DNA from: Euborellia annulipes
Taxonomy: Eukaryota; Arthropoda; Insecta; Dermaptera; Anisolabididae
DNA length: 64,000 nt
NCBI GenBank assembly: GCA_023213315.1
Contig: JAKCPI010024858.1
Location: forward strand, 46,915 to 110,914
Direction: 5' to 3'
Below are positions 5,129 through 59,479 of this stretch, one piece after another. The translations under genes were made by a program, and so were the position numbers. Numbering within the stretch: position 1 is the first letter of the stretch; each line of letters opens with the position of its first letter. The notes under the pieces were generated by a model, which worked only from the letters and a program-made list of their open reading frames with translations, was not told the origin of the DNA and did not search any database.

Positions 5129-8100
5129 TTAAATATTCATTGCGTTTTTATCTCGGGATTCGGTCCAGGCTTTGGCGATGGTCCTCTTCAGGTCATCATC
5201 GCCTTCCTCGTACATTTTCTTCATCATATCCATGAGTCCTGCTGAGGGGTCATCGTTCTCATTCATTTTGGGTACCTTCGGCTCATTTGCTTTCTTTTCA
5301 GAAGCGGTAATATGCGACCAGCGAATACCTTCAGTCTTTTTAGACATGTTAACGATAACATTGTCTATGAGAGAATAAAGAAAAAATAATTATTACATAA
5401 GCAGCAGCAGCATATATGGACAGTGATGCTTTTGAATTTCCATTGTTTTTTTTTTTAATAATAAAAGTTTCAATTTTGTGTAGAAAATTTTATAGGGACT
5501 AGATTTTACCCTGGCGCCTGTTGGAGGAGGGGGTAGTGAAGATTATTTGAAATATATTCGCAGTTCTAAAATTTCTTCTGTAGTTTTTTTTTTCAGGTAT
5601 GTGTTGTTCGGCTGGATCTAGGGAATTGTCGGAAGATTTAATCAAATCACCAATTCATATCACCAATTCGTATCAGACAATTTTATTGGTTAACGAGGAT
5701 GCATTCTGTTCGTTTCGGCCGACAATAGGTCTTCATCAGAACCATATTTGTCTAAAATTTAAGACAGTTTTTTACTAAAGTTGTATTTATGTGAGTTTCA
5801 CGAGGATATGCCCCATAGTTCAAAATATTTCACTTGAAACCCACACCGCAATCCATAAATTTAACAGTTTTTTACATTTACAAATACAATTATTTAGTTA
5901 TCCGATTCTTATGCTTCATCAATGATGAACTTATGTATATCTTTATATATAAACAAGAATTTTTTTAAAATGTCAAAACAAAACGTTTCTAAGACTAATT
6001 ATATTCGGAGTAATTTAATTTAATTTAATTGAAATCAAATCTCTCAACAGAGATTGTTAACTCCAATTACAGAGAGATCAGGAATACAGAATACAATCAG
6101 TTGAGTATTTAGGAAATATCACCACGGTCCCTGTTATAAAGATAGATATATCCCTGGAGCAGGCAGTAACTTCGGGTAGTTAAAAACAATAGGGTAGAAC
6201 TACCTTGGCCGCTACATGACCGAATATTTCTGAAATATTCCGAAGAACATTTCAAACAATCTATGGTAATCAGTGGCACCAGAGTATAACTTGTAACTAT
6301 AAAATTGGTAATTCGTATCTGGAGAGATTTTCAGTTTTTTTTTTTTTTTTTTGTTTTTTAATATGTAATGAGACTGCTTTCAGCAATCAGATTAAGGGTA
6401 GGGGACCCTCCCTTTAAAGGTGCAGCCCATTTTATTAATAAAATGAATATTCAGATGATTTTTTTTCAGTGAATAGAGAAAAAGTTTTTAAATAGCAAAA
6501 TTTAATTTAGAAATGAGGCCTTGATCCCCCCCCCCCCCCATCAAAAATTAATTTCCTAATGTTACATTTGATTAAAGTAACATTTGGAATGTGATTTCCT
6601 CGACTTAAAAAATAACAATATTCATTGTTGACGCCCCCCCCCCCCCCCCTGTTTGTTTTTAAAAATAATAATTCATTTTATTATTAAAAAAACAATTGAA
6701 ATTCAAAAGCTCAAAGCCATAGTCTTGATTTTAATTTATTTAATATAACGCATCTTTTCCATGATCAAATTACCTGATTTAACCCTCCAATTGCTTTTCT
6801 CAACGTTAATTTCTTCTAAAAGGTTTTTAATCAGTAATTGGTAGTTACGATTGTCTAGCCCTTTCACATTCAATTCCATTGACCTATTAAGTAAAATTAA
6901 TTAAATCAAGATTCGAATTCATTATTCATAATAAAAAAAATAGATACCTGTTAGTAAATGTGCAGTAAACATTTCCTGATTCTAAAGATCCCACATTTTT
7001 TAAGGATACAAATATGTTAACAAATTTATCAGATTGATCCCAAGCTAAAATAAAAAAAAATTTAATTAAAATTTTGTTAAAAAATGTTAATATTTTAATA
7101 ACTTCTTACCATAATTATTGATTTTGGTATCATAACATTTAGGGACGCTGTTTGTAATCAGAGCTATAGCCGGGGAGGGTGAATTCGTTTTCGACGAGTT
7201 TTCTTCTTTTAATTTGAGATTAATAATTTCTGTTTCAACTTTTCTTATCTCAACAGAAAGGATATCCTTAACTCGGGGCCGTTGAGCAGTTTCTAGAAGT
7301 TGCTTCAATTCTTTGACATCTAGACCGAGCTGGAAAAATAAAATTATCATATTCAAAATCAATATTAAAGTGATGTGAATTCTTTTTAAGATTTCTGAAA
7401 TCTCTTTTGTAAAAATTCTCCCTTTTAACCTTCCCTTAGTCGCATGTATCTGGTAGATTCATGGAGAATTTGTATTTCACGGCACTTTTAAGTTTAAATT
7501 CCTACAGACTCAGTGTCCTCCTCGTTCAAGAGACTCTTTTTGACAGTGCGTCAACTGGGTTTGTACAAGAAAGTACTTTTGAAATAATAACGATTTGTAT
7601 CTCACAGATATACGCGACCCTTCTGGTAAGTTTTGTAAAAAAAAAAAACACTTGAATTGACATAGCTCTTGTGTCGAGGAAGGATAGCCTATAAATGCAG
7701 GCAGCCAAGAAATAAAAACGCTCTCGATTCCCTTTGAATGTCCAGACGTTTCGGGCAAAATTTATTCGCCCATCCTCAGTGAACTATTCTAGTGGGAGAG
7801 AGTTAAGTCTCCTTTGGTATACATAGTTGTTGTTAGGTCCTACTACGTATTCTATTTAATGTAACAATATGATGATAAATGAGTTTTTTGTTATTAAAAC
7901 TTTTTGCTATAAAAAAAAACTCATTTATCATCATATTGTTACATTAAATAGAATACGTAGTAGGACCTAACAACAACTATGTATACCAAAGGAGACTAAC
8001 CTCTCCCACTAGAATAGTTCACTGAGGATGGGCGAATAAATTTTGCCCGAAACGTCTGGACATTCAAAGGGAATCGAGAGCGTTTTTATTTCTGGCTGCC

Positions 8101-9359
8101 TGCATTTATATCCTTCCTCAATATATTTCCAGCCATTAAACATTATTATAGCTCTTGTGTCTCCTGATAATGAAAATTTAAATAAAAGAGAAAGATGTAG
8201 AACGGGCTATTTACAATCAAAAAAATCTCGCCTCACAAAATATTCTTGCATAAAATGTAAAAAATATTTGTCAAGATTGTGTTGTTTAATAAATATTTAT
8301 ATAAAAGGTAAAATACACTCGGTTATGTGTTTCAAGGTTTTTTTATTATTATTAATTACAATTAACACTTAATATGTATTTCGACATTACTGTCATCATC
8401 AGAAGTGGTTTTTAAAAATGATACATCTTGAAGTTATCCAAGGTAGATAACTTCACGATGCATTTTTAAAAAACCACTTCTGATGATGACAGTAATGTCG
8501 AAATACGTATTAAGTGTTAATTGTAATTAATAATAATAAAAAAACCTTGAAACACATAACCGAGTGTATTTTACCTTTTATATATACATAATGTTTCAAC
8601 TTGAGCCTACGGTAGAAAGTTTAAATCTAATAATAAATATTTTCCTATAATTATAATATAATTTAAAATTCTAGTTTTATTCCTTGTTTAGAACATTAAA
8701 ATTGTTCAATTAGAGCAAATTTAAAATGTTTTTTATTTTTGTAGTCCTTAAAAATAGCCTTGTATCTGTCAGATAGATATTCGCTACATCTTAAGAACTT
8801 TTAGGTCAATTTGATGTTGGTGAGAAAGAAGAGACTAGAAAATCGGTTTAGATGCCAGAGGAGCTGAACTTTGCTTTGGATATCAAAATTTATAATAAAA
8901 AATCAGGGCCGGATTAAAGTGTGTAAGAAGGAAGAATATCTCAAAGATACATTGCCATAAAAAGTCTAATATTTTTGTTAGGGTAAATAAACAAAACATG
9001 GAGGGCACACAAGCAATTCTTTGTGCAAAAAAACTACTCATCACTATTTTATAAAAGGAAATTGAGTGGAGATTTATTTAACTCATCTCTCAAAGCCCTA
9101 ATCAAATAAATTATTATTTCCTTATTAAGAAATAATCTTTAGTTTATAATTTAATCACTTCTAAACTAAATATAATAGTGAAACATTTTTATTATTTCAA
9201 TCATGTAATTTATTAACATTTCTTATCATTCTTATTAAATGAGAATAAGTTTTAACAAAAATGATTAAACTTTAATATTATTTATTTAAATTCAATTGTT
9301 GGATAGAAATAATTAAGATAAACAACTTTGCTTACCTCTTGAATTTTTGTGGCGGTCAT
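5129..9359 (-). CDS. CACYBP: calcyclin-binding protein / Siah-1-interacting protein
   Basis: Five coding exons read on the minus strand: 9359-9336, 7329-7110, 7044-6948, 6883-6774 and 5364-5129. All introns are GT-AG and the join gives 228 aa, the same length as human CACYBP. The N-terminal helical Siah-binding part (LKQLLETAQRPRVKDIL) is in exon 2. The CS domain core (WDQSDKFVNIFV) is in exons 3-4. The C-terminal SGS domain (GDDDLKRTIAKAW) is in exon 5. The family bridges Siah E3 ligase and Skp1 in beta-catenin degradation and binds S100 proteins. Exon 1 encodes only eight residues (MTATKIQE). The 2 kb first intron holds two palindromic hammerhead-ribozyme elements (7676-8147, 8299-8583). 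A minus-strand AATAAA lies at 5098-5093, about 30 nt after the stop. Confidence 0.95.
5703..5745 (-). ncRNA. decayed hammerhead ribozyme motif
   Basis: The minus strand carries CTGATGA, a weak stem II (GACC/GGCC, one mismatch) and GAAA. After GAAA it reads CGAAC rather than a usable stem III plus cleavage triplet. It lies in CACYBP intron 4. It is probably an inactivated relative of the intact copies. Confidence 0.4.
7740..7784 (-). ncRNA. type I hammerhead ribozyme
   Basis: The minus strand reads stem I GTTCA, core CTGAGGA, stem II GGGC...GCCC, then GAAA, CG, and cleavage triplet GTC (cut after the base at 7745), and stem I TGGAC. All core positions fit CUGANGA...GAAA...NUH. Stem III would be only A-CG-U, self-complementary (ACGU), as in dimer-acting metazoan hammerheads. 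It lies on the CACYBP sense strand. Confidence 0.75.
8017..8061 (+). ncRNA. type I hammerhead ribozyme (inverted partner)
   Basis: It is a plus-strand copy of the ribozyme at 7740-7784: GTTCA, CTGAGGA at 8022-8028, GGGC/GCCC stem II, GAAA at 8049-8052, cleavage after C8056, then TGGAC. Both arms of the palindrome keep an intact core, so decay has been limited since insertion. Confidence 0.75.
8366..8408 (-). ncRNA. type I hammerhead ribozyme, stem III slightly decayed
   Basis: The minus strand carries CACTT stem I, CTGATGA, stem II GACA/TGTC around GTAA, GAAA, TACATAT, then T and AAGTG. Compared with its partner at 8475, one base of the stem III palindrome has changed (ATACATAT instead of ATACGTAT), which weakens dimer pairing. 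Confidence 0.65.
8475..8516 (+). ncRNA. type I hammerhead ribozyme with 8-base palindromic stem III
   Basis: CACTT (8475-8479), CTGATGA, stem II GACA-GTAA-TGTC, GAAA (8500-8503), then stem III ATACGTAT, fully self-complementary, followed by U17 at 8511 and stem I AAGTG. This differs in sequence from the ACGT stem III of the other copies yet keeps self-complementarity. That argues for selection on dimeric folding. Confidence 0.75.
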
Positions 9360-23197: not shown

Positions 23198-26100
23198 TCA
23201 GGGTGCGTTGATTGGTGCGAGTTCCGTTGTGCCCGGATCTCCGGCCGCCGTCGGCTTCGGGGCGACAGCCGTTTCAAACCAATTTGTAGCTTGAACGCCA
23301 TTCATGTATTTGTCCTCGCACATGCATAGGAACAGCGTGTCGATTACAACCTAAAAGAAAAAAAAGAAAGTGTCTATTTGTGTTTATAAACAACACTGCG
23401 CGTCAAAAACACTTTGTTTCCTTTCTTCTTAAAAAGACCTGTTCTAATATATCTTAATAATACTGTAATTTATTAAGGTGCTACGGGAGCGAAGTGGTTA
23501 CGCATGTTTTTCCCGCTAAGATGGCGTTGTTTGTCATTAAAAGTATGCCCAAATATCAAGTAATTCAAAAATTTGCCAAGAGATGTCAGAATGGTAGCTA
23601 ATAATATTTAATGCATTTGGTTGATTTTCATTGATTTTTTAATAATAAATACTTTATAAATGTTATTATATATTATGTATCTTTTATAAAAGCATAAAAA
23701 TATATGAATATAGGCCAAAAGGGGATCGTCTGTTAGACTAGCCTGCCATCTATTGCAAGAATGCTGAACTAATTTAACAGTTGATTTTTAAATAAATCAT
23801 CTAAGCTTATTTTAAGAATTTCTTAATTAATATGTGATTAATAATAACAATTAAATTCATTTTTAAATTTAAAAAAAATTAAAAATTATTGGCACAGATT
23901 GTTTTTTTTGTATTTGCTTGCTAACAAAAAAATTAATTACGATAATTTTTTAATAAGTCATTAAAAAGATTATAGCTCGATGCCCCAATAATCTCATATG
24001 AATTTATTCATTTAAAAAAAAAAACCGCATTGAAAAATTCCTTATAATAGTATAGTTTTTTTTAAAGTACGTTTAGACGCCGCTCCTGAACCCCCTTAAA
24101 CATTTAATATCAAATAATTTATATATTTCTAGGTAAATTTAACACAAATCCATATCATTTTAATAAATAATTAAAATTTAAATCAAACATAGACAAAAAT
24201 ATCGCAATTTTTTTATTAACGCCATGTATAAGATATTTCATATTAAATGTTTCTAAAATTAGAGTATCATTAAGGTAGATTAAATAAGAAGAAACGTGAC
24301 GCGTAGTGTTTATTTTATATTCTTCCATAACATGCAAAAAAAAAAAAATAGATTGAAATAATATAAAGAATTACCTCATAAAGTGAGAGAATACAATGAG
24401 CAATAAAAAATGAGAAAATGCAGACAGCGACTGTTGGCGCGGCATAAAAATGCAATTCATAATTATGTTTAAACCAGAGTAAACCAAGAATTCCAGTAGC
24501 AGCTGTTACAAATACTTTTCCAAGAAACAGAATAAAATCGCCGATACTATTAATAGTTGCCAATTGCAAAGCATTATTAACCATACATGTAAAAGCCTGA
24601 AAAGGAGAATTAATCAAGAGTTAAAAATTAAATTTAGATTGGTAATCGTAGACACTAGTTGAAACATTGTAATATTTTTAAACACTAATTTTATAATTTT
24701 GGATAACCAATGAAGTACGTGGCTGTTGATTTATGCACAAGGAAGGAAGCAGGTGCAGCCAAAATTAAAGCCTCCGATTTTGTTACAATTAATGAGGCGT
24801 TTCTCGACAACTCCGGGACAAATACAATTTGAAAGACTGATGATGAGGAAATAAAGTTTTCTCGAAACGTCTCATTAATTGTAACAAAATCGGAGGCTTT
24901 AATTTTGGCTGCACCTGCTTCCTTCCTTGTGTATTTTATAATTTTACCTATTAAAATAGTTTATATTAAAATTGTGAGAATATTGGGTGCGCGGGAGAAA
25001 GAAAATCAGCAAATGCCTTATTATAAGAATGGAAATACAGAGCGAGGCATAATAAAGAGCGATTTTTAAAAGGCTGTTAAGTAAAAACCGTTAAAAAATT
25101 ATTTTATAAAAATACATGAAAAAGTATTTTCTGCAATAATAAAACAGTGGTAATTTTTTGAAGGTAACTCTGGTAAGATGACGTCCGTTTAGACGCACAC
25201 ATTCCTCCAGCCGGATCTTGAAGTGTCTCATCACATTGCGCAGGATTGCCAGTGGGATTTGAACAACTTCCTGTCGGATCCGCTCTTTCAGGGCTTCAAT
25301 TGTTCAAGGAGACTTTGGTTTTCAGATGACCCCACAAGAAAAAGTCTCATGTTGTGAACGAGAGTGCCATGCAATATCCCCTTTTCGGGTGATCACTTGA
25401 TTTGGAAACAAACAATTGACAATTAGTAAAAGAATTTGATTTTCGGTTTAACTGTGCTTGATTTGTAAAAATCACTTATTATACTCTTTATAATCTTAGC
25501 TGAAGAAGGCCACAGAATGAGTGGCCGAAACGTTCTAATTTTTACAAATAAACCACAGAAAATAAAATTCTTTAACTAATGATAGCAACTGCGAAAGCCT
25601 CAACTCCAAAAAAAAACAATTGACAATATTCTTATGATATTAAAAATTTTTTTTAACTACTTGTGTTTTTACTTAAGAGCCTTTTAAAAATCGCTCTTAT
25701 TTTGCCTCGCCTTGTATTTTGATCGACTATGCGAAGGGCCGCCAATGCACGGAGAATGGCCAAGCCCTCCGATGTTATCAAATAAGACGAGTCCGAAATC
25801 TGCTGGTTTTCTTTCTTGTTTTGTTTTGAATTCTTTTATTAATTATAAATAATTATTTACCCTTTTAGCGGCTGCACAAAAATGAATTCCTTGGATGGCA
25901 ATCACAGTATAGGCGTTATGATTCATAAAACGAATGAATTTTTCGAGACAATAAAAGCAACAAATGCAACCTTTGAGGCAACATTTTGCACATTCAGAAC
26001 CCTCTTCATCCTTCTTCAATCTAAAATTAATGATAATTAGCTTCAACTATCTTTTATTTAAGAGAAATAAATTAATTACTTTGCATATAGATAGGTGAGA

Positions 26101-30000: not shown

Positions 30001-32034
30001 CCGGCGAGATAATGCAAAATTCCAATCATTAATATTGAAAAGACTAGAAAAAATAATAATATAATCAATTTATATTCTTTTAACTAAAAATTATATTTAT
30101 TACCAAGAGCGACAAAAGTGAGTACAAGAATTTCTTTCCAACATGTGTATAAATCACCAAGAATGGATTCGATGGCGTCCCAAGCATTAATAACAGAATA
30201 GAGATTGCTGATCAAATGCCCTGCGGCCTCTTTGAAAGGTTTAGGCACGCATCTATTTAAAACAATCGTACTCTCGTATACTGGGAATTTGGGACAAGGA
30301 CCATAAGAGGTGCTCAAAGCCACTTTGGTCTCTTCAGTTGTCAAATTTGAGTCCAACCATTTAGAAATGTCTATGTCAGGTCTGAAATATAAATAATAAC
30401 TAATTAATAAAAAGGTAAACAATAAATACGTGATGCAAAAAGTGAAATTGTCGGAAATTTCACAAATCAAAAAATAAAAAAGTTAGAGCCTTTCAAAGTT
30501 ATAGATATAAAAAACGGGCTTTTGAGGTAAACGCATTTAAACACAATCAAAAACTTTATAAGGTTACTAAATCAATTATTTTGTAATATTTATCGGATTT
30601 TCAAAGCTAAAATTACCGAATAAACTTATTTAGGAAATAATGAAGAATCGTATCCAATCGATATTTTTGACCTAATACGACTTAAATGCCCGTACGATAA
30701 TTTTACAAGAGGTTCCTTTTCACTTTCGGCAACACATATATATAGATAAATTATTTAAAATACAATAAAGAATGAAAAGTAGAAACAGCGCGAGAGTATT
30801 AGTTGAGTGGAGAAATCAGGAAGGTTTACTCGCTTGTATGCAGTTGGTTGAGCAAGAAAAAAATATTATTCAGAGAATTATGTCGAGGATATTTATTTGT
30901 ACCAGACAACTGATTTTGAAAAATGATCAGTTTCGGATTGAATAAAAACATTATATTTGCAGTATATTGTTTGACATGTTTATCAACAATATACTGTATC
31001 AACAATATACCTCAAATAGAATGTTTTTATTCAATCTCTCCAGTAAAACAACTTATAATTGTGAAGATTATTGTCTTAATTTTATTGTCAATTTTAGATT
31101 GGTTGTAATATTGTATAGTCATTAGAATAAGTTTATATTTCAAAAATTATTGTATACAATTATTCATCTCATTGTGAGCTGGTATTGTTTTGTGTTTTTG
31201 ACTCTGTGCATTGAATCTCTTGATATTGTTCACAGGCCTGATGATGGTCAACCTTGACTGAAACTGATCATTTTTCAAATTCAATCGTCTGGTACAAATA
31301 AAGGTTAATCGGAGGACTCGAAGCCACGCCAGCGCCCCCTGGGTGGCTTGGAGTCCTATAATAAAGATTAGCCCAAATAAATATCCCCGACATAATTCTC
31401 TGAATTATATTTTTTTCTTGCTCAACCAACTGCATACAAGCGAGTAAACCTTCCTGAAAATACAATAGTTAGTTGGGCTTTTTTATAGTTAAAATTAACA
31501 AATGATATCTCACCTGCAAAGAGAGGATCCTGTCCTTTTGGCGAATTCTTTGACATCAATCAATGAGTTGAGTGTTTTATCAGGACAATTTTTCACACAT
31601 AATTTTAGAGAATTTCTCACATCACTAATATCAATATAGAAAAGAAAAGGTTTAGAGGTCATGTCAAGTCCAGAGAAAGGCAAACCCATGGGCTCGTTTT
31701 TCTTTGTGCCGCAAGTGTTTCCAAAACTGTCATATCCATTTATGAGACGAAGCGGATTCCCGTAAACGAATGCAAATGCAGCAATCAAGATCTAAAAGAA
31801 AATTAACTATTTATGAAGATATATACTTTTTTAGGAGTGACTGATTCCTCAATCATATATATATATGCGAAAAAATGATTAATTTATAAAAAAGATTGAG
31901 CCTCTCACCATAACACCCCAAAAGATGATAAAAAGACATAGCCAGAAGATATCTGTGCATGATCTCGGCTTTGGCTCTTGTCTTTGGCCAGCTTCGGCTT
32001 CCTCTTCATCGTCGCCACATCCACACCATGACAT
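23198..32034 (-). CDS. SLC44A1: choline transporter-like protein 1 (SLC44 family)
   Basis: Eleven coding exons on the minus strand: 32034-31909, 31791-31514, 30381-30104, 30043-29814, 29755-29569, 28751-28617, 26428-26281, 26217-26080, 26020-25861, 24596-24375 and 23350-23198. All joins are GT-AG and in frame, giving 684 aa, close to vertebrate CTL1. Landmarks are the RSCTDIFWLCLF first membrane segment, a long extracellular loop starting YDSFGNTCG with paired Cys, several hydrophobic segments, and the family core YMWWFYIIGLIWISEFILSC. Also seen are YHLGSVAKGSFLITL, the CCLKGCICCFYCLEKF Cys block and NALQLATINSIGDFILFLGK. The family moves choline across plasma and mitochondrial membranes for phospholipid synthesis. 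SLC44A1 is favoured over SLC44A2/4 from the N-terminus and loop, at moderate certainty. Introns are full of mobile DNA. Confidence 0.93.
23394..24290. mobile_element. Tc1/mariner-like non-autonomous element with nested MITE
   Basis: The left end CACTGCGCGTCAAAAA plus AAAAAGACCTGTTCTAAT, and an inverted counterpart near 24228-24290 (TATCATTAAGGTAGATTAA), match the element starting at 40741. A second element (23478-24103) sits inside it. It lies in SLC44A1 intron 10. Confidence 0.45.
23478..24103. mobile_element. intronic MITE F, copy 1
   Basis: It shares about 600 bp, in the same order, with 28822-29443: GTTACGCATGTTTTTCCCGC, GCCAAGAGATGTCAGAATGG, TTAGACTAGCCTGCCATCT and GCCGCATTGAAAAATTCC. 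Ends are only loosely inverted. It is non-coding. Confidence 0.5.
24701..24932 (+). mobile_element. hammerhead retroelement with 13 bp duplication (SLC44A1 intron 9)
   Basis: The element is 232 bp, flanked by ATTTTATAATTTT at 24688-24700 and 24933-24945. The arms CACAAGGAAGGAAGCAGG and their inverse enclose a hammerhead at 24832-24876. A 35 bp unpaired 5' head contains GTGGCTG. The left arm carries only a decayed ribozyme complement. It is inserted antisense to SLC44A1. Confidence 0.65.
24832..24876 (+). ncRNA. type I hammerhead ribozyme
   Basis: CTGATGA at 24837-24843, stem II GAGGAAA/TTTTCTC (one G-U pair), GAAA at 24864-24867, ACGT stem III and GTC with cleavage after 24871. Stem I (AAAGA / TCATT) has a mismatch and is the weakest part. 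Confidence 0.6.
25150..25395 (-). pseudogene. Tc1/IS630-type transposase C-terminal fragment
   Basis: Read on the minus strand in shifting frames it gives FLWGHLK, then LAILRNVMRHFKIRLEECVR and NGRHL. This is the usual end of arthropod mariner/IS630 transposases (after the last catalytic Asp). Stops and frameshifts show it is dead. Confidence 0.6.
25424..25614 (+). mobile_element. compact 191 bp hammerhead retroelement (retrozyme-like)
   Basis: A perfect 13 bp duplication AACAATTGACAAT (25411-25423 and 25615-25627) bounds a 191 bp insert. The insert has a short A-rich 3' end, an internal pairing AGTAAAAGAATTT / AAATTCTTTAACT, and one intact hammerhead at 25496-25538. It sits inside the Tc1/mariner element at 25038, so it is younger than that element. 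It has no ORF. Confidence 0.75.
25496..25538 (+). ncRNA. type I hammerhead ribozyme, strong stem II
   Basis: TTAG stem I, CTGAAGA at 25500-25506, a six-pair stem II GGCCAC/GTGGCC, GAAA at 25527-25530, ACGT stem III, triplet GTT (cut after 25534) and CTAA. A further perfect 12 bp complement (25461-25472 with 25538-25549) could close the whole fold from outside. Confidence 0.75.
27005..27036. repeat. AC microsatellite
   Basis: A TATATA run leads into about ten AC units in SLC44A1 intron 6. Confidence 0.8.
27236..27600 (+). repeat. SINE with tRNA-like head, type II arm (family 3)
   Basis: 27236-27308 has GGCAAGTGGCTAAGC as A-box region, a long variable arm and a perfect B box GGTTCGAATCC, as in Leu/Ser tRNAs, then CTTGGCGCA. 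About 290 bp of non-tRNA body follows. It is interrupted at its 3' side by two MITEs (27608 and 27729). Confidence 0.5.
27608..27712. mobile_element. short hAT-type MITE, CATGGGCG ends
   Basis: Inverted ends CATGGGCGTATCTAG / CTAGTTACGCCCATG. Flanks GATGAAGG and GATGAAGT are an 8 bp duplication with one mismatch. Length 105 bp. Confidence 0.65.
27729..27957. mobile_element. PIF/Harbinger-type MITE
   Basis: The perfect inverted end AGGTGGAATTCCGAGCAACG continues through GCGACAGAGCG. A 3 bp duplication TTA lies on both sides. The interior is rich in CGC/GCG and GTCAC words, unlike the AT-rich surroundings. Confidence 0.65.
28150..28192 (-). ncRNA. decayed hammerhead-like motif
   Basis: The minus strand has CTGAAGA and a GGCA/TGCC stem, but the GAAA box reads TAAA. 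A related truncated word CCTGAAGAAGGCGCAC occurs on the minus strand at about 15186-15200. Treat as a fossil. Confidence 0.25.
28822..29443. mobile_element. intronic MITE F, copy 2
   Basis: It is the second copy of the 23478-24103 element, also inside SLC44A1 (intron 5) and in the same orientation. Left end GGGAGTAGTAGTTAAGC, right end CGCCGCTCCTACTACCCC, loosely inverted. Confidence 0.5.
31234..31275 (+). ncRNA. probable inactive hammerhead motif
   Basis: CTGATGA (31238-31244), stem II and GAAA (31260-31263) are intact. After GAAA comes CTGATC rather than a short palindrome plus NUH, and stem I does not pair. Confidence 0.4.
31303..31373. mobile_element. 71 bp micro-MITE
   Basis: It has ends GGTTAATC / GATTAGCC and an inner hairpin AGGACTCGAAGCCAC / GTGGCTTGGAGTCCT. 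An 8 bp duplication CAAATAAA (31295-31302, 31374-31381) flanks it. The empty site is visible in the other arm of the surrounding palindrome (minus strand of 30818-30968), which has a single AAATAAA and no insert. Confidence 0.6.
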
Positions 32035-33003: not shown

Positions 33004-36000
33004 ATGGCTTCTTTTGATTCTTTATTAACAAATCAGGATGAATCTCCAGGATGGTTTGCATTATTATTTAAGAATTTCTGCAATCTGGAATCAACATCGG
33101 CACGTGTGCAGGATTTCGCAAAATTAACATCAGATATAGAAAAATTCAAATTTATACGGTATTGTATAAAAATTCTCTTAAGAAATTGAATTTTTTCTTT
33201 TAAAATTAACTCCTTTATAAATATAATAGAGATGATCCAGAAGCTTCAAGTTATATACAAAATTCATTTAATGAAAATTCCACGAAATTTAAAAAATGCA
33301 ATTTGGCAGCAGAGAAACATCGACAAGCGGGGAATAGAGCCTTTCAAAAAGGAGATTTCCCCTCGGCATTTCATCTCTATACACTGAGTATTAAATCCGT
33401 TCCCCAAGATAACACCAAGGATTTATCCATCTCGGTAGCCAATCGATCTGCAGCTCTTTACCACCTTGAATTGTACCAGGATGCATTAAGTGATATTACT
33501 TGGTGTTTGAAAGTCGGCTACAGCAAATCGCTGCACTATAAAGTCAAGGATAGGTAAGGATTTTGAAAATTATTATTTATTATTTATTAATGCTAATTAA
33601 TTTTAGGGAAGCCCGATGTTTACTTGCTTTAAAACAACATTTAAAAGCGCTGGATGCATTTCGTGGAACTCTTCAGGCATTAGATGATGCTGATTTATCT
33701 TTAGAACGACGGAGAAAATGGCAAATGGATGTACAAATTATGATGACGATGTTGGAGAAGACACCCCAGATTTCTAATGGTACAAAAGCTATTTAAAATA
33801 ATGGATAATAGGATATGTAAATATGGTAAATAAGATTTGTGCCGGATGCTGGACCGGTGAAATGATCTTTCAATGAATGAGCGGTAAATGGTAAATAAGA
33901 TGCATGGGGAATCCTAGGAATTAGATACCGTCTCACAACTCAATTTATAGCTGTGATGTTATATCCATAAGAGGGTAGAAAAATGAGAGACTCAGCTAAA
34001 GCTTTTTCCCACACAGCTGACGTTTCGGTTCCGTGTTTAAACCATCTTCAGAGCTGGCGAAGTCATTATTTAAGTGTCACAGTGGATTTCATACATAGTT
34101 GAACCAAACCTTTAAATAATTTTATTTATTTATTTGAACTTCCGCCCCTCCCAGTTTGGATTAAGAGTTCGATACATAAATTTACATACATTTATATAAG
34201 GCGGAATCAAAAAAAAAAAAAATTGCAAGACATATGCAGCCAAAATTATTTCTTTTATTATGCCGTTCCAGGCTGCATGTCTTGCAATTTTTTTTTTTTG
34301 ACTCCGCCTTAGAAATACTTCCAGCCACAAAGACATACCTCAATACCTTTATATAATTAAATTTTTTATAAATAAAATTTTATATACCTGGTCATCGCAT
34401 ACCGATTGTATATATTTATTATATGTATATATATTATTATATATCTGTGACACTGGTTCAAACTCGGAACCGAAACGTCAGCTGTGTGTATTAGATAAAT
34501 AAAGAAAAAACTTTAGCTGCGTCTCTCATTTTTCTACCCTTTTATGAATATACCGTTTAAGAATAGACAATATATTGAATAATATTTGTGAGAAGCTTTG
34601 AAGACTTTGGATTATGGTAAAGGTTATCTGCCTCAAAAGAAAGCCCTGTGGACCAATCACTCAGCTGAAAATATTAAGAAAGTCACTTGTTGCAGAGATT
34701 TTGGAGAATTCATCACCCCAGCTTCCAAGCTTAACTGGTGGAAAGCACCAAGCTCTTCCAGCCGCCTCGTCTCTAATTGGAGTTAGATTCGAACCAGAAT
34801 TGGGACGATATACAAAAGCTGAAAAACCAATAAAAACTGGAGATACATTGATTATTGAGAAACCTATTTGCGTTGTTCTTCTAGCTGAACATAGAGATAC
34901 TCATTGCTTCCAATGCTTTAAAAGGTTTAAATGATTTGTTTATGATATTTTGAAACAAAAATCAAAAACAAAAAAATTTATTTTGCGTAGACTAGTTGCA
35001 TCAATACCATGTCCAAATTGCACAGCGGTGCTCTTCTGCGGAATGTCCTGTCTTGAGAAGGCACTCAACACCCATCATCGATATGAATGTCCTTCATTGT
35101 CAGCCCTTTGGTCATCAGGAGCTTCAGTGACGTGCTTCATGACTTTACGGCTTATATCTCAAATATCTCCTCAAAACTGGACTTATTTACAACCCGTTCT
35201 AGAAGCGGTAAGAGTAACTCTTGAAATGCTAAAGTGTATTTTAATTATAAAGATTAAATAATTATTTTAGGATGATTCATCTCCAGATTCAAATGAAAGA
35301 TTATTATTGATTTCCGGGGATGATTATCGTTCTGTGCATCGTTTAGTTCGACATCCTTCTAAACGATCTAATGAAGATATTTTTCACCGAGCTAATATGG
35401 CATTAGTTCTTTATAAATGTCTTGAAAATGGAGGATATTTTGAAGGAATGAAAGAAGAACAAATTTTATTTATTGGAGGTCTTTTACTTAGAAATCTTCA
35501 AGTAAATATTTATTTTAAACACTTTCAATGTTATTCTCAACTCTGAGTTTTATTCTAATTTTATTGTCCAGGCCTTGCAGTTCAATGCCCATGAAGTTTT
35601 TGAATTACAAGAGTCAACAGATAATGATTCGTCTTCTCGGACGGTCTTTTTAGGAGGAGGTCTTTATCCAACACTTGCGCTATTTAATCACTCATGTGAA
35701 CCATCCGTTACTAGGTATTCTTTTTCTGTTTTCGCCTCGAATGATAATCCAGAGCCAAAACTATTTAATAATTTCTATTTCAGATATTTTGTAGGGACCA
35801 CAGTTGTCGCACGAGCTGTTCGTCCCATTCGAATAGGAGAGCAAATAGGAGAGAATTATGGGCCAATTTTCACTCAAGAACCAAAAATAGTTAGACAAGA
35901 AAAATTAAAAAATCAATATTGGTTCGATTGTCATTGTCGGGCCTGTATTGAGAATTGGCCTCTTTTTCAAGAGATGCCGACGGAGGTCCTTAGATTTCGT

Positions 36001-36412
36001 TGCGAATCTTGTCCTGGTGTGATCATCGTGCCCAAAGAGACGCCGGATTTTATGGTCAGATGTCCCTCTTGTAGCAAATATACTAATCTCCTTGGAGGTC
36101 TTAAAGCTTTACAGGTATGACAATTTGTGAAGTGGCTCTTGTATTTTAATAATAAATGAAGGAGCAGGCTAAGATGAATTCTATTTTCTTAATGCATTTA
36201 AAAAAATGTAATTATTTCTCTTATAGGATACTGATGCAGGCTTCAAAAGAGGAAGTCGCCTCTTTAATGAAAAAAATATTCCAAAAGCTCTTGAAGAATT
36301 TACAAAAATTTTGGATCTTTTGGACTCAACTCTTGCGCCGCCCTTTACAGATTATCATCTCTGTCAACAGGCTGTTCGGCAATGCCTTTTGAGATGTGGA
36401 AACAAAAAGTGA
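33004..36412 (+). CDS. SMYD4: SET and MYND domain protein, SMYD4 type
   Basis: Nine exons: 33004-33158, 33230-33553, 33607-33779, 34696-34924, 34991-35207, 35271-35501, 35572-35714, 35784-36114 and 36227-36412, in frame, 662 aa. The N-terminal TPR part (AEKHRQAGNRAFQKGDF; ANRSAALYHLELYQDAL) is in exons 2-3. The split SET domain starts near SSLIGVRFEPELGRY. The MYND zinc finger has CFQC, CPNC, CGMSC and HHRYEC. SET catalytic motif FNHSCEPS is in exon 7 and the post-SET cysteines FDCHCRAC in exon 8. SMYD4 is a predicted lysine methyltransferase active in cytoplasm and nucleus. The protein is shorter at the C-terminus than vertebrate SMYD4 (about 800 aa). The exon 3-4 join (donor after 33779, acceptor at 34695) is inferred. 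Intron 3 carries a hammerhead element. AATAAA lies at 36444. Confidence 0.9.
33961..34551. mobile_element. palindromic hammerhead element (SMYD4 intron 3)
   Basis: Arms at 33961-34060 and about 34445-34551 are inverted copies (AGGGTAGAAAAATGAGAGAC on the left). The minus-strand arm has an intact ribozyme, the plus-strand arm only its 3' half (34453-34485; core reads CTGTGACA). A second small palindrome without ribozyme (34197-34311) is nested in the middle, with a head reading TGGCTGGAAGTATTTC on the minus strand. Confidence 0.6.
34014..34056 (-). ncRNA. type I hammerhead ribozyme
   Basis: On the minus strand: CAGCT, CTGAAGA, stem II GGTT/AACC, GAAA (34026-34023), ACGT stem III, GTC with the cut after 34019, then AGCTG. 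Stem I is five perfect pairs. It is antisense to SMYD4. Confidence 0.7.
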
Positions 36413-46671: not shown

Positions 46672-49621
46672 ATGAGCAATTGTAAGTATTATTAAATAAA
46701 TAATATTTTTTTAAATAAAGTGATTTATGAATCAATTATTATAGGTTTAAGGGTCGCTCTAGTTCAAATGGCAGTAGGAGCCAATAAATTGGAAAATATC
46801 AACAGAGCTCTGAAACATATTCAAGAGGCAAAAGAAAAAGGCTCACAACTTGTGATTCTTCCAGAATGCTTTAATTCACCTTATGGTACAAGTATGTAAA
46901 ACAGTTTTGATCTTGATATACTGTAGTAGTTATATGACTAATTAATTTGAAAATTAACTAATGTCATTGGCAGACCATCATGGATAATACATTAAGCTCA
47001 AGAGCTTTCAATTTTAAATAGCAAAAATAATGTTCTCTGAGCAATTTTTCATCTGTTTTTATACAACTTTTTCGTGCATGCCTCCATACCCGGCCCCTAT
47101 TCATGCATTGTGAGATGTCACGTCAAAACATGACTAACCATTTGCTAAGCTGTTTGGACTTAAGTATTGTATTAAGATGAATGGTGAGGGACAATAATAA
47201 GTACCACCCATGCGTTTTCTACTAGTGATTATTTCATTGTTATATTGTTAAATGAAAATTTATAGGAAATTTTGTAGGTTTGAACCATGAAAGTTTCCAT
47301 TAAAAAATATATATTTTTTAAAAACAATGAAATAATCACTAGTAGAAAACGCATGGGTGGGATTTAATATTGTCCCTCACCATTCATCAAATCTTAATAC
47401 AATACTTAAGTCCAAACAGCTTAGCAAATGGTTACTCATGTTTTGACGTGACATCTCACAATGCATGAATAGGGGCCGGGTATGGAGGCATGTAAGAAAA
47501 AGTTTGATAAAAACAGATAAAAAATTGCTCGTTATCGGCCCGAATAACTCCACTGTCTTAAGAGATAATTATTTTGAACATAAAACGGTTAGAAAGAATG
47601 GTACTTCAGTTTAATCCTATTATTTAATCAGTTTAATCCTATTATTTAATTTTACCGCGAGAGCGCGCGGCGGGAAATTCTTATTTGAAGGTTTAAACCA
47701 GGGGTGAACAACCTTTTTAATCAACGGGCCAATTTAAATTTTAAAAATTTTTGGCGGGCCGCACATAAAGTAACACTTATTAATAATTTACAAAACTTTA
47801 TTTATAATAAACATTAGAATAAAAAAAATTTAATTTAAAAAAAAGTAAAGATTTCATATACAAATTTTAATGCAAAATAAAAACAAGAAAAGAACAGAAA
47901 AACGAATTTACTTGAAATTTTTAATGAGAAATTTAAGCAGAGAGCGGAAAAAAGTCTCTTATTTTCGGAAAAAAGTCGCCTTAATTCTTTTTTAGCCAAA
48001 TAGTCGGTAAAAAGTCTCTTAAAAAGTCGCTGTCAAGTTTAAGAATTAATAATATGAAAAAGTAAAAGAAATACAGCCTTCAAGCACTGTACAATTTCTT
48101 TTAATAACTCGGACACCTTCTATATAATAATTTAAATAATTTTCGAGACCTATTCATGAATACCTCAATTCGGCTGGTCTAAATTATAAAATAATTATTG
48201 GAAACAAAGATTGATTTCACCATTTTGGGAGGGGGAAGAATTCCCAGGAATCTTTTTTTGTATATTCCTGAAACATACAATAGAGTAGTTTTTCTGCAAA
48301 AAATTGTAAATGGTTACCCCATCTTTATAAAATTTCATAAAATATTCAACTTGGCCTATATTGTCAAAGCTATTGTACAATTTTTGTTCTATTATAGAAT
48401 ATTTTGGTGAATATGCTGAGAATATTCCTGATGGCGAAACTTCCAAGAGTCTATCAGCTGCAGCCAAGAATTCACAAATTACCATTATAGGGGGATCAAT
48501 TCCAGAAAAAGTTGGGCAAAAGCTATTCAATACCTGCACTGTTTGGAATCCACAGGGCGAACTCGTGGCCAAATATAGTAAAATGCATCTTTTTGATATT
48601 AATGTTGTCGGAGGACAGCAATTTAAGGTACCTGGATTATAAAATTACATTTTTAATCATTTTAATATTATTTAGAGAACGGGAGAAATTTTATATCATT
48701 AAAATAAATGAAATCTTATAGTTCTGGATTTTATTGATAAACTATTTCCAATTTTATAAAAGAAAAATGTTTCTAACTTCAAAACAAATTAAAATCAATA
48801 TTTTGGACAAGCAATTCCTACCAGGGCTGGAGTCTCGACAGAAAAATATGTGACACCGAAAATATTAAAGAGGGTTTTATAGTTTTTGAAATTAAAATGC
48901 TCTATTTTGTCATTTTATGCCTACACAGACAGGGACAAAGTAAATTTGCCGACGACACCCCAGCCCTGGATCTTCCTAACCGCCTTTAAAGCTATTACCT
49001 TTATAAAAGATCCATTTCATTTCAGGAATCGGACACTCTATCAGCTGGGGATAAATTTGTTAATATTGATCTTTCTGGATGGAAAATTGGATTAGGAATT
49101 TGTTACGATATTCGATTTGTTGAATTAAGCCGATTGTATGCTCTTCAAGGCTGCGATTTTTTGGTTGGTATTAAATGAAAAACAATTTCTATTTTTATTT
49201 ATGAAATCTAATTTAATAATTTTGTAAGTAGGTTTTTCCAGGAGCTTTTAATCTTACGACTGGTCCTCTGCATTGGGATCTTTTAATACGTTCTCGAGCA
49301 TTGGATAATCAATGCTATGTTGCGGCTGTTGCCCCTGCTAGAAATGCTTCCGCCGACTACCAATCCTGGGGTCATTCAGCTTTGGTGGATCCATGGGGAA
49401 AAATTCTTGCTCAAGCAGAAGCAGATCCTCACATAATCATTCATGATATTGATAGGGATGTGGTTAAGGCTATTCGGGATCAAGTAAAAATTATTTCTTT
49501 TCTTAAAAATATTATTTACTTTATCTTATTTTTATAATTATTTTAATATACTAATGGGATTTTCTCTCCTTAGATCCCTGTCTTCAAACAACGCCGAACT
49601 GATATCTACAATATAAAGTAA
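46672..49621 (+). CDS. NIT2: omega-amidase NIT2 (nitrilase family)
   Basis: Six exons: 46672-46681, 46745-46891, 48398-48627, 49026-49163, 49232-49483 and 49574-49621, in frame, 274 aa (human 276). The nitrilase catalytic triad is visible: Glu44 in LPECFNSPYG, Lys114 in KYSKMHLFDI and Cys155 in GLGICYDIRF. The family block FPGAFNLTTGPLHWDLL follows, with the end IPVFKQRRTDIYNIK. The enzyme hydrolyses alpha-ketoglutaramate and alpha-ketosuccinamate in cytosol and mitochondria, closing the glutamine transaminase cycle. Exon 1 encodes only MSN plus one base. The donor of intron 4 (GTTGGT at 49164) is weak but needed for FLVFPGAF. Intron 2 (1.5 kb) contains a large palindromic insertion. Confidence 0.95.
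46975..47545. mobile_element. large inverted repeat with nested MITE (NIT2 intron 2)
   Basis: Outer arms at about 47035-47185 and 47385-47530 are inverted (GCATGCCTCCATACCCGGCC and its complement; GAGATGTCACGTCAAAACAT). The centre holds a second copy of the GTGAGGGACAATA MITE seen at 4568. The left tip has further unmatched sequence. Confidence 0.55.
47690..48190. other. rest of NIT2 intron 2
   Basis: It includes a block GGGGTGAACAACCTTTTTAA...GGCGGGCCGCAC typical of small dispersed repeats in animals. No ends are defined and nothing coding is seen. Confidence 0.3.
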
Positions 49622-51520: not shown

Positions 51521-51544
51521 ATAAATTTTCATCAAGTAAATTTA

Positions 51545-52640: not shown

Positions 52641-52645
52641 CTAGT

Positions 52646-52985: not shown

Positions 52986-52999
52986 GAATTGTTTCTTAT

Positions 53000-53775: not shown

Positions 53776-53780
53776 AATAA

Positions 53781-53945: not shown

Positions 53946-53949
53946 GGGA

Positions 53950-55104: not shown

Positions 55105-55194
55105 AGAATTTTTTTTTTATTTATTTTTTTCAAGCCTTTAGCCCTTGGCCATCGGCACCATTACACTATATACATATAAAATACATAAAGAAAA

Positions 55195-55490
55195 TTATTA
55201 TTACTACGTATTCCAATTCAGTGCATGCTTGAGGATTTGTTTACATTCATAGAATACATAAATGTAAAGAATACATTAATTTGTCTCTATACATTTCCTA
55301 TGGGAGAAATCGTAACTTTAGAAATTAATAACAAAAAAAAAAAAGGAATTTCAGAACCCGAGTATTTTTCCTGGACTCTCCATAACGTCCTCTATAAGAC
55401 TGAAAAATTTCGTTTCGAAATTCCAACGGGAAGTTGGTCAAACAGCGTGCAGACGGACGGACACTCCGCTAAATATATATATATAGATAA
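55195..55490 (+). repeat. dispersed repeat E, copy 2
   Basis: Matches 14747-15003. It is slightly longer in the middle and ends with GACG-GACGGACACTCC. Confidence 0.5.
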
Positions 55491-55587
55491 TTAGTAAAGA
55501 TTATAGTGATACGTCTTTAGAAAAAAATTAAATAGTAGATAGGACGATAAGGAGCTTCCGTTTTCTCTCTCACTACTTCAATTTATT

Positions 55588-55629
55588 TGCAAATATTTCG
55601 GCTCCTATTCAGAGGCCATCTTCCGTGCA
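55588..55629 (-). ncRNA. decayed hammerhead ribozyme
   Basis: Same fold as its partner but with a U-to-G change in the invariant CTGANGA box, which should abolish cleavage. Confidence 0.5.
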
Positions 55630-55672
55630 TATATGAATTTTATGAGAGATTGTAAATTGACAATCTCTCTCA

Positions 55673-55714
55673 TGCACTGAAGATGGCCTCTGTATAGAAG
55701 CCGAAATATTTGCA
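55673..55714 (+). ncRNA. type I hammerhead ribozyme, AUAU stem III
   Basis: TGCA, CTGAAGA (55677-55683), stem II based on GGC/GCC, GAAA (55703-55706), then TAT giving self-complementary AUAU, U17 at 55710 and TGCA closing stem I. Stem II is weaker than in other copies. Confidence 0.6.
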
Positions 55715-55799
55715 AATAATTTGATGTAGGGAGAGAGAAAATGGAAGCTGTTTTTTTTTTCTCCTTATCGTCCTCATCTACGATTCCTTGAGATGCTAA

Positions 55800-57115
55800 T
55801 TTTGCGAGATTCCAGCAGCCACAATTTTGAAGCTATCGATCTGAAATTTTTTTAAAATTAAAACTATTTAAAATATCTACAACTTATAGAAGCCCTTTTT
55901 TTGATTTTCGAAAAAATAAATTTATTTTTTTAAATTAATCGCATTCAAGAAAAGATATTTTTAAAAAAATTCACTCTATATCTTATAGATAATTAAATTA
56001 GTAATCATTGTATTAAAAAATATTTAATTTTTTAACCTTAATTATTTAGCTGGAATCTTTCAAACGAATTGGAATAATTCCCTTGTATTCCTATGGGAAA
56101 AACTAACGCCATCTCTTGCCGCCTAGAGTAACTCGGTAGTGAATCGTCTTCTAACGGCTTTTCGAGACGCGCACCTTAAATCTCGACGGGAAACACAAAT
56201 AGGTAAAAACAAAGTGGTCCACCACCAATATTACTTTGCTACAAATTAGCTATCCCTCATTACCAGTCTATCCCAACAAACTAGAAAATTTGCTACTTTT
56301 TTTTTTATCTTTTCGGTATTTAAGATCATATAGTCCTTTATATCACCTTCAAATTATTTAATAATAATTACCATGAACATATCGGTTAAACTAAGAATGA
56401 TCCACTCATATTTATTTATTGATATATTTAAATCAACTTTCATTGTCTGTCTAAAATCTGAACCCACACCGAATGAAATGTAAAAGGTTTCTTAAAAATT
56501 AGAAATATTTAATTTGATGAAAATTAGATTCAAGTACTATCTTATAATCATCATTCATTGTGGTTCACAACAGTCGTTAGTTTCCAAATAACGATATTTT
56601 AAGCTGGGTCCAAACTGATAAGAATTTGTGTTGTTGTTGCCTCTGCTTCGTCCTGTGTCAGAATGTCAGCCAGTACTTTTATCTATTGAATTTCCAATAA
56701 ATTGTTGAATATTATGATACCTTTGCACCCAATTGTTTGTCATGGTTGTTTATGTTTACTTTTTGTAACCAATACATGTGTATATCTTTTTCCTATCAAT
56801 AAATCTTTTTCGCGTTCTCTCTAATTAAAGCGCTAATTATTTAAAGCAACTCTGCAATAGATATACTGAAGATGTTTAATCAAATATTGCTTTCTTTTGT
56901 GATTTTTTTTTTAATTGCCGAGTAAATTATTACTTCTTCTTTATTAACTACAGGAACATTTTAAATATAATATAAATAATGTTTTTAAAAAAACATCTCA
57001 CACAGCACGCACAACGCAAATTTTTTATCAGATGGCCCAGCTTTAAATGCTTTTTTTCACTAAAAGGATTGTTGAACAATTTTCTAATACAGTCCACATC
57101 AAAAATCATATTACG
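55800..57115. other. intergenic DNA, nothing recognised
   Basis: AT-rich with short ORF shadows only. Confidence 0.4.
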
Positions 57116-57129
57116 AAGTTGTGCTTTTT

Positions 57130-57299
57130 TTTTAAGGTCTTTTTCGGCATCTAAGGCCATTTAGACCCCATCCCTATTTATTTCAAATGATTTGTAGTCA
57201 AATCAAATGAAATAAATTTTTCTCGCTTGGGACGGGAAGCGAGCCCGGGACTCCGGTGCGAGAAGCTAATGTCTTCTCACTGAGCCACGGCTCCCGGGC
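57130..57299 (-). mobile_element. SINE family 2, minus-strand copy
   Basis: On the minus strand: a tRNA-like head (CCGTGGCTCAGTGAGAAG; CCCGGGCTCGCTTCCCG), then GGACGGGAAGCGAG-type body and a GCCGAAAAAGACC end before an A tail. A 14 bp duplication AAGTTG(T/C)GCTTTTT (57116-57129, 57300-57313) flanks it. Confidence 0.7.
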
Positions 57300-57314
57300 A
57301 AGTTGCGCTTTTTA

Positions 57315-59180
57315 CTCAAAAGAGGTTGTGGATGACTGCTTTAGAGTTTCAGTTTTTTTTTGTACTAATTGTATATAAATGGTATATAGTACTGGGAATA
57401 CTGAGATATATACAATTAGTAGCTCTTCGCTTGAATGTCAACTCGGGATTTGTGGCATGAGACCTTTTGTCCAAAAATGGCAGTGCCTACCTGGGAAATA
57501 GCGAGAAAAAAAATTTCAAAAATTTTCCAAATTATATAGAATGACAATAGTTAGAATTAAATTAAACGTTGTTTATAATCGATGATACTGAGAATTTTAT
57601 TTCTAAGTTATTCTCTAAATTGGTTCGATTCTTTTCGGAGTATTTCTTAGTGTATATTAATAATAAAATCTGTAAGAGATTAAAATTAAAATTGATGAAT
57701 AATGGCGCATAATGAGCGTTAAGTATCGCAATTTGACCAAACATGGAGAAACGATGAGATATTTCCAATATCTAATACACTTATCATATGCTAATATTTA
57801 TTTGCTTTCCATAAAAAGATGAGTGTTGAGTGATGGCGATGATGATGATGATGATCCGTTAAGTTTAATTCAAACTCAAATAACATCCCTTTGGAAAATT
57901 AAAAGGAAAAATTAAATTAAAAAATTTCATTCATAGCGTTTTTTATGTCAAATTAATATTAACCATCAAACACCGAAGAGTATAAATAATAAATGTGAAT
58001 CATGAGAAGCAATATTTGGTGTAACAAATTGTGAATATTCACAAAACATTTTACTATTAAAATTATATTAACACCCATTATATATTAGATATATGTATAT
58101 TTTAAGAAGAATATGTTAAGCCAGATTCTGGCCAATAAATAAATATGATAAGCTGTAGCTGGATTCATGCTGGAACTTACTTATTTAGCATAATCGTTGA
58201 ATTCCCAAGATTTCGGTGAGATTTTAAAATATACTCAAGACATGATTGAAAAATCTATTTATTACGAAATCATTGTTCTTTAATAATATGTCACCAGAGA
58301 AAAAAATATAAGAGCTTACATAGAAAAAAGTTGTGGTAGTGTTTAAAAATATCTAAGAAGAACTATGATGCCTAAAATAAAATATTCATAAGAGCTCTCG
58401 ACATGTACAAAACTTACCTCACAAAAGATTCTTTAAAAGGTCCTTGGACGTTGGAGTCGAATTAAAATTGAAATACTGGAAAAGATTGTAGTAACAGGCT
58501 CTTCTGAATGTTCTGTTTGAAATTTTAATAATTTTTCAAAACAAGTCTAATCCCAAGTTTGGTTTTAGGAACCTTATTTTGGCCTTTGTTTCTGGCTAAC
58601 TTTGGTTCGAGAGATCAGATAATTCAAACCAAATTTCAACTGAAAATCATAAGGTTAAAATAAGGTACTAAAAACTTGGGATAACTAACTGATTTTGTTT
58701 TGAAAAATCTTCAATCAATTCTGGTTTTGATTGATGGGAAAAAAGGATGGAAGAGAGAGAAGTCATGAATTAAGTTAAAATTATTTTAGGTGCACATTTG
58801 AAAAATTAAAAAAACCAACTTTTTGGCACATAATTTTAATAAGGAGAATAAAATTATTTGTCAAAAAAGTTAACTGCTTAATTTTTCAAATTGAATATCC
58901 ACTCAACATATCTCTAATTTTAGGTTTGATTAGAGAATTATTGTGGCGGAAATGTTTCAAGGGATCATAAAAATTATGGAACTACTGAGAAATTTATGAT
59001 AATAATATTTCGACTATTATGAAGATAAGCACAAGAGTAGAAATATTTCTTCAATTTTAATATAGATTATATCTATGTATATCATGGTAAATATCATATT
59101 ATCTTACTATAAGGTATAGAATAAAAGATTATTTTTTTCGGCCCAATTTTTCATTTGTTTTGCCCACTTTCACAAGGAAT
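57315..59180. other. intergenic DNA, nothing recognised
   Basis: Contains a GAT trinucleotide run at about 57837-57855. No gene found. Confidence 0.4.
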
Positions 59181-59192
59181 GATAAAAATGAT

Positions 59193-59479
59193 CTTGCAGT
59201 AAGGAAGAAAGAAAAGAGCGATTGCAGCTAAGTTTATTTCGTTTATCGCTTCAAGCCGACGTTTCGGTCAGATATACGACCATCATCAGGGCTGAAGCGT
59301 GTCAACAAAATTCCTCAAAATGTCGAATGACACAATTGTGTAAAAAATATTTTTGGCATTTTATAAGGACCAACAGGCTAAACGAGTCAAATTTAGATTG
59401 ATAAACGAAATAAACTTTGCTGCAATCGCTCTTTTCTTTCTTCCTTACTGCAAGATCTACTCAGCTATCCACCTCACTC
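59193..59479 (-). mobile_element. hammerhead retroelement with 13 bp duplication
   Basis: The element is 287 bp, bounded by TGATAAAAATGAT (59180-59192, 59480-59492). Arms CTTGCAGTAAGGAAGAAAG and their inverse flank one intact minus-strand ribozyme near the left arm. The unpaired 5' head (minus strand) is GAGTGAGGTGGATAGCTGAG. Confidence 0.75.
59248..59298 (-). ncRNA. type I hammerhead ribozyme, nine-pair stem I
   Basis: GCTTCAGCC, CTGATGA (59289-59283), stem II GGTCG-type with GACC, GAAA (59265-59262), ACGT stem III, GTC with the cut after 59258, then GGCTTGAAGC. Stem I has nine pairs with one bulged U, the best stem I in the window. Confidence 0.8.

Follow-up and report, generated by a model that had tools for sequence, protein, structure and literature searches.

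Penelope-like elements with minimal hammerhead ribozymes in their pseudo-long terminal repeats (pLTRs) are said to have been described by Cervera and De la Pena in 2014 and by Lunse and colleagues in 2017. As far as those accounts go, such hammerheads lack a proper stem III and are expected to act as dimers, and the same holds for motifs in a 64,000-nucleotide stretch of the genome of the dermapteran Euborellia annulipes (assembly GCA_023213315.1, contig JAKCPI010024858.1, positions 46,915 to 110,914 of the forward strand; the whole stretch is called the window below), for which a preliminary description had listed nine type I hammerhead sites. Our analysis suggests that seven of the nine sites lie in Penelope-like insertions, six of them in mirror-image pLTR copies that would have been produced by two-sided target priming on one RNA, an account that we regard as likely.

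Penelope elements of the rotifer Adineta vaga have an inverted pLTR on the 5′ side, an optional 31-bp tail on one inverted pLTR and head-to-head palindromes (PMC3846280; sources given by PMC number were available in part, and statements about them are limited to those parts). The insertions described here share these three features, with target duplications mostly of 10–14 bp as against 8–10 bp in A. vaga (PMC3846280). In 2013, the rotifer authors favoured self-priming on an antisense template, left the origin of the inverted pLTRs open, and called for discriminating experiments (PMC3846280). The purified protein of PAc, a Poseidon element of the anole, cuts and extends both strands in vitro, starts at two internal sites bounding a tail, and can dispense with the hammerhead for insertion in vitro; the account does not discuss the inverted structure (PMC11167929). 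Two start sites bounding a tail are also found in E. annulipes, where both strands would likewise be extended. Metazoan retrozymes are similar to our insertions in being small type I hammerhead repeats of low GC content but are direct tandem repeats, unlike the inverted pairs seen here (PMC7229834).

In the mechanism that we propose, an endonuclease would make a staggered cut, and a single RNA would serve both free 3′ ends as template for complementary DNA (cDNA) synthesis, which would start at the inner (short) site from one strand and at the outer (long) site from the other, after which the two cDNA ends would be joined in the middle. The copies are probably short because the pLTR at which synthesis starts lies near the 5′ end of the RNA and synthesis runs off that end. 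Tandem transcripts are the predicted substrate of the hammerhead, which would cleave them when the short stem III of one copy pairs with that of another.

A strict descriptor (CTGANGA, a stem II of at least 3 bp, GAAA, a self-complementary stem III, H, and at least 3 of 4 pairs in stem I) matches eight of the nine reported sites, compared with five matches in total, and never more than one per shuffle, in 200 dinucleotide-shuffled windows. The earlier statement that every site carries all parts of a hammerhead holds for these eight and fails for 8366–8408, because its stem III, ATACATAT, is not self-complementary. Training on 33 hammerheads, all from outside the window, gave a covariance model that recovers seven of the nine sites, each at a (rough) E-value of at most 3.1e-6, and adds an unreported partner at 55584–55633 on the minus strand (E 7.2e-6). 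For the two sites with an 8-base stem III, the model gives a weak match at 8363–8410 (E 0.79) and none at 8475–8516 at E up to 1; the core of this pair has 130 exact copies in the genome versus 0 for the control. The Rfam scan that had been suggested as a check gave no significant match: no hammerhead was found in the window at the gathering score or at E up to 10, and RF00163 had no match in the genome, nor in any of 14 control genomes. As sequence motifs, the hammerheads of the window are confirmed.

Across the 903-Mb genome, the core pattern CTGANGANNNN{6,30}GAAACGTC has 50,444 exact matches (25,324 forward and 25,120 reverse), while the reversed control pattern has 40. The 100 matches listed, from the first contigs, comprise 82 distinct strings. 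With no pairing filter applied, skipping one base after A9 leaves 273 of 328 cells of the 4-bp stem II paired (shuffle 205, standard deviation 5.8), as against 154 of 328 in the register without the skip (shuffle 143). The core is therefore a hammerhead in which one additional base separates A9 from stem II, possibly a difference from the minimal pLTR hammerheads. Stem I pairs in 180 of 216 cells at 54 distinct sites (shuffle 110.9, standard deviation 6.6). A CUGANGA/GAAA core with covarying stems I and II identifies these motifs as type I hammerheads, and the covariation bears out the earlier remark that pairing is kept while the stem sequences differ. Stem III is mostly ACGT or ATAT in the loci scanned, sequences that would need a second copy in order to close; a self-contained stem III hairpin is present in one family (L061). 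The family designated F3 has 586 exact core matches in addition to the 130 of the family with the 8-base stem III (W8.4), and because there are many copies per family, the question of the inverted pLTRs can be addressed by reading insertion ends.

Among the matches listed, 23 pairs lie within 600 bp of each other, of which 20 are minus-then-plus, two plus-then-minus, and one in the same direction. The loci that were read show mirror-image insertions that carry the ribozyme in a single arm or in both, and their centres can differ within one family, as in the window element at 7662–8161 and locus L001. The preliminary description had named metazoan retrozymes as relatives, and short non-coding repeats with type I hammerheads in high copy number would be expected of non-autonomous elements of this kind, spreading via hammerhead-made RNA circles. 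Direct tandem repeats bounded by hammerheads, however, are represented by that single co-directional pair, and templates cross the cleavage site, so that we consider the retrozyme explanation very improbable.

The insertions are mostly bounded by target duplications of 10–14 bp, and both arms run outward into the same tail, stopping at two points approximately 31 nucleotides (nt) apart. In the F3 family, 57 loci were sampled: one from the core listing, 16 from eight pairs and eight single places, a further 20, and then 20 by tail pattern at places absent from the listing of F3 ribozyme-core matches. Forty-three are two-armed and 14 one-armed; leaving out 11 two-armed loci with unresolved ends or ends at a contig or stretch edge, both outer ends are resolved in 32. 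The ends are short/long in 15, long/short in 12, short/short in three, and long/long in two, so 27 of the 32 combine one short and one long tail in either order (P 5.5e-5 versus independent ends). Twenty-two loci were examined in other families, and ten without a duplication of at least 12 bp were left unscored. From the 12 scored rows, L074 (a match in an unrelated repeat) and L022 (an F3 copy) were removed, and L066 and L067 proved to be one insertion on two contigs, leaving nine independent insertions, the ends of which differ by 22–33 nt. Three window elements described below (W24, W25, and W59) follow the short/long rule by eye, giving 12 of 12 non-F3 insertions with clear duplications. 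A tail of approximately 30 nt on one inverted end, which we took as a mark of Penelope-like insertions, is thus present in both sets and, by eye, in the full-length copy L061.

The hammerhead carriers resemble pLTR insertions of Penelope-like elements. There are 118 GIY-YIG matches in the genome, several as inverted pairs, and the descriptor finds a hammerhead in 18 of 30 loci fetched around such matches (L031–L060, 3 kb each). Four longer stretches (L061–L064) carry frames of 822–852 amino acids (825 in L061 and 822 in L063), flanked in all four by direct repeats (pLTRs). Both RVT_1 and GIY-YIG exceed the Pfam cut-offs in L062 and L063; RVT_1 is above the cut-off in L061 and below it in L064, and the genome search places GIY-YIG above the cut-off at both L061 and L064. 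A pLTR hammerhead is present in L061, L062, and L063, and none was found by the descriptor scan in L064. L061, with arms 99.97% identical across 3.2 kb, and L063 are fully head-to-head inverted, while L062 has a partial inverted copy. One end of L061 lies by eye at the short tail point and the other approximately 31 nt beyond it, with a duplication of approximately 13 bp. Full-length L063 shares an identical F3 ribozyme with the short insertion L022, where it is found in one arm. The L063 frame has no match among PDB sequences at E up to 1. These full-length copies, in which reverse transcriptase, GIY-YIG, and pLTR hammerheads occur together, sustain the link to Penelope-like elements that had been drawn earlier. 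The right tail of L061 holds a second, nested mirror-image hammerhead element (L061:7722–8752), with 211-bp arms that are 100% identical.

The inner ends of the two arms differ independently. In 13 of the 27 short/long F3 insertions it is the short-tail arm that extends deeper into the RNA, in eight it is the long-tail arm, and six are tied or ambiguous (the margin is at least 10 nt, and more than 30 nt in eight of the 13). In 13 of the 27 insertions, both arms hold RNA-derived sequence absent from the partner, and therefore neither arm was copied from the other, unless the centre was deleted later. A copied arm cannot exceed its template arm, yet these 13 insertions would need this both ways under self-priming or snap-back, proposed for rotifer Penelope (PMC3846280), in which the second arm is templated by a single cDNA or antisense RNA that has folded back on itself. 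The small palindromic centres of many copies would suit such folding, but splicing at GT..AG would be impossible on an antisense template, and yet exact matches to a spliced junction are abundant (see below). We give self-priming very little chance.

Short copies lack a 109-nt stretch, bordered by GTATGT and TTTTTTAG, that full-length L063 retains, and the genome contains 473 exact matches to the spliced junction and 82 to the intact 5′ splice site. Across this junction, 40 F3 arms are spliced and 21 unspliced. Both arms cross it at 19 loci, 11 with both arms spliced, eight with both unspliced, and none mixed. When L079 and L082 are left out (unspliced, with overlapping arm alignments), all 17 clean loci are concordant (11 spliced and six unspliced); independent arms would be mixed in approximately 45% of cases, and by simple arithmetic zero of 17 has a chance near 4e-5. 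At a variable base near +82, an anchored recount shows agreement in 18 of 18 arm pairs (shuffle mean 9.2, reached in none of 5000 shuffles), and arms agree at other variable columns in 26 of 27, 15 of 18, and 14 of 15 cases. The median divergence between arms is 4.2% within an insertion versus 10% between insertions, and in 20 of 22 insertions the arms differ less than the between-insertion median. From the spliced copies and the concordant arms, it follows that the template is a sense RNA, often spliced, and that each insertion likely drew on a single molecule. The commonest position of inner ends is −79 to −87, with 17 of 86 arm ends when spliced and unspliced coordinates are taken together, and it likely marks the 5′ end of the RNA.

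Two-sided target priming might also draw on a pair of RNA molecules, each serving its own protein subunit and both originating from the same source locus. The anole Penelope protein is predicted to dimerise (PMC11167929), and identical short arms cannot tell one molecule from two equal ones. Two molecules should nonetheless leave some mixed insertions, given that both splice forms are common, and a near-obligate single start per strand is easier on one RNA; we therefore hold the two-RNA version to be unlikely, although it deserves more weight than the other alternatives. Long inverted arms are also what fold-back DNA transposons, or assembly artefacts with a chance hammerhead, would present. 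The spliced copies show an RNA step, and a hairpin artefact of assembly would not give bounded arms, duplications, and different flanks on either side, which leaves this explanation with next to no credence. Priming on one sense RNA from both cut strands is the reading that we retain.

In 16 of the 19 distinct long-tail arms examined (the exceptions are L016, L065, and L071), the stretch preceding the short start pairs with the part of the tail that separates the two starts, forming a GC-rich helix of 5–6 bp that occurs in the compensatory forms TGGCTG/CAGCCA, TAGCTG/CAGCTA, GGACTG/CAGTCC, and GCTGG/CCAGC. Swapping tails among 16 arms lowers the pairing score, with 18 of 5000 swaps reaching the observed value; this test left out L001, L003, and L071, and some short-start positions in it were placed by eye. 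A second F3 pairing, TATGTCTT/AAGACATA, which would form a pseudoknot, was discarded as occurring in one family only.

As for the ribozyme, templates run through the predicted cleavage site, and at most one of the 57 F3 loci starts there (L125, which begins at the hammerhead cut at +33 with 2 nt overlapping its duplication). Among the loci seen, cleaved RNAs would have served as template rarely at most; 37 of the 57 were picked by an intact hammerhead, which biases the count. A crowding of inner ends at +24 to +34 was considered as a sign of cleaved templates and rejected as loose and unconvincing. That templates span the cleavage site agrees with the in vitro result that the hammerhead is dispensable for insertion (PMC11167929). 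Only 2 nt lie between the end of the intron and the catalytic C, and splicing therefore swaps the 5′ strand of stem I (in F3, TTAG before CT is replaced by CCGG before CT); as a guess, this may couple splicing to the predicted self-cleavage. A broader proposition, on which we are evenly divided, is that Penelope-like integration is unlike that of long interspersed nuclear elements (LINEs): two reverse transcriptases would work simultaneously on one RNA, each primed from one strand of a single cut and obliged to use its own start, 31 nt apart and flanking one strand of a conserved helix, with the inverted pLTR as the direct product and with splicing and self-cleavage perhaps coupled.

Target duplications were tested in nine window elements. 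Four hammerhead carriers have them (W7.7, W24, and W25 with 14, 13, and 14 bp exact, and W59 with 16 bp), as the preliminary description had counted in attributing type I hammerhead motifs to retroelements with target duplications, and an 11-bp repeat bounds a fifth element, which has no proper hammerhead. The earlier reading thus stands as to retroelement-borne hammerheads, while it overlooked that the carriers are mirror images with a fixed end difference. W7.7 lies between copies of ATAGCTCTTGTGTC at 7662–7675 and 8148–8161. Its left arm (7676–7901, minus strand, inverted repeats I11/I13) has the short tail and its right arm (7902–8147, plus strand) the long tail with the TGGCTG/CAGCCA helix, the central boundary being approximate; the hammerheads are at 7737–7787 (minus) and 8014–8064 (plus), both with a covariance-model E of 3.1e-10. 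In W24, between copies of ATTTTATAATTTT at 24688–24700 and 24933–24945, the left arm (24701–24812, minus) has the long tail (CAGCCA) and an inner end within the hammerhead; the right-arm hammerhead is at 24829–24879 (plus, E 7.1e-7), and the mirrored part of that arm (24855–24932, plus) ends in the short tail. W25 is bounded by AAACAATTGACAAT at 25410–25423 and 25614–25627. Its short left arm (25424–25475, minus, delimited by eye with an approximate inner end) has the short tail without a hammerhead, and its right arm carries the hammerhead at 25492–25542 (plus, E 3.1e-6), followed by the long form of the tail at 25543–25613 (plus, by eye). The copies bounding W59, at 59180–59195 and 59480–59495, differ by one mismatch in 16; the left-arm hammerhead (59250–59297, minus, E 2.9e-9) has the short tail to its left, and the right arm (59399–59479, plus, by eye, inner end approximate) is truncated before the hammerhead and has the long tail with CAGCTA. 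The W34 hammerhead (34011–34059, minus) has the long tail (TAGCTG, CAGCTA) to its left, and its partner arm was not found. In W55, with arms at 55553–55630 and 55672–55749, the decayed left-arm partner hammerhead (55584–55633, minus) is the one missed earlier, and the right-arm hammerhead (55669–55718, plus, also matched by the covariance model) has an ATAT stem III. W8.4 (8293–8589, arms 8293–8418 and 8464–8589) is a mirror-image element for which no Penelope link was established, with its 8-base stem III hammerheads at 8366–8408 (minus) and 8475–8516 (plus).

Several observations weigh against the proposed mechanism. Five of the 32 F3 insertions break the short/long rule. The three short/short rows are L098, which is really one-armed, L114, which lacks a clear duplication, and L122, which has an odd right end; the two long/long insertions, L099 and L131, lie between mirrored flanks, as if neighbouring DNA had also been duplicated in inverted form. 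The ends of L071, which has a 10-bp duplication, differ by 10 nt and fall outside the rule, and some of the 14 one-armed F3 loci have the duplication directly at the inner end. A later central deletion could shorten an arm and mimic independent ends, and a shared source locus, rather than one molecule, could yield the concordances between arms. A plain alignment-column count at +82, where an adjoining T run makes the alignment unsure, gives 22 of 32 concordant, and the arms are mutually closest in just three of 22 insertions. PAc in bulk showed no strand difference in start site (PMC11167929). Full-length partners were examined for the F3, L061, and L062 families, none of which is seen in the window. 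Finally, no target duplication was found at W34 or W55 (nor, among the nine window elements tested, at W5.7 or W8.4), and W25 lacks the tail helix by eye.

Other features of the window are recorded here in their own right. The claimed start of the hammerhead family at 5703 includes a CTGATGA at 5739 (minus) that no scan supports; it is followed by GAAACG, without a good stem II, and 5703–5760 is possibly a decayed copy. The hairpin of W8.4 (8375–8507) matches Rfam MIR3932 at E 2.6e-7 and 51.1 bits against a gathering score of 150, which probably reflects just the long hairpin. An inverted-repeat element at 30816–31457 is bounded by an 11-bp direct repeat and contains cores that resemble a hammerhead (CTGATGATGG..GAAACTGATCA at 31238) but break the stem III rule. 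Another mirror-image element, at 47039–47530, has 140-bp arms that are 96% complementary, in which neither the descriptor nor the covariance scan found a hammerhead. An open frame at 35506–36120 looks by eye like an exon of a SET-domain (SMYD-like) protein, and 570–641 matches a tRNA at 42.9 bits.

Among the titles and abstracts searched, subscription papers (e.g. Cervera 2014 and Lunse 2017) aside, none explains inverted pLTRs by two-sided target priming and none gives the short/long rule; the available parts of PMC11167929, PMC3846280, PMC7229834, PMC6155905, PMC7761336, and PMC12910113 do not describe the end rule. One start per strand, a separate cDNA for each arm, and a sense, often spliced template together yield a sharp prediction for the published PAc system in vitro, and a reverse transcriptase that would write from both cut strands at once is of interest for genome-writing tools. 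If the broader proposition is true, the mirror image would be the normal landing product of Penelope-like elements, and the inverted pLTR would be no accident.

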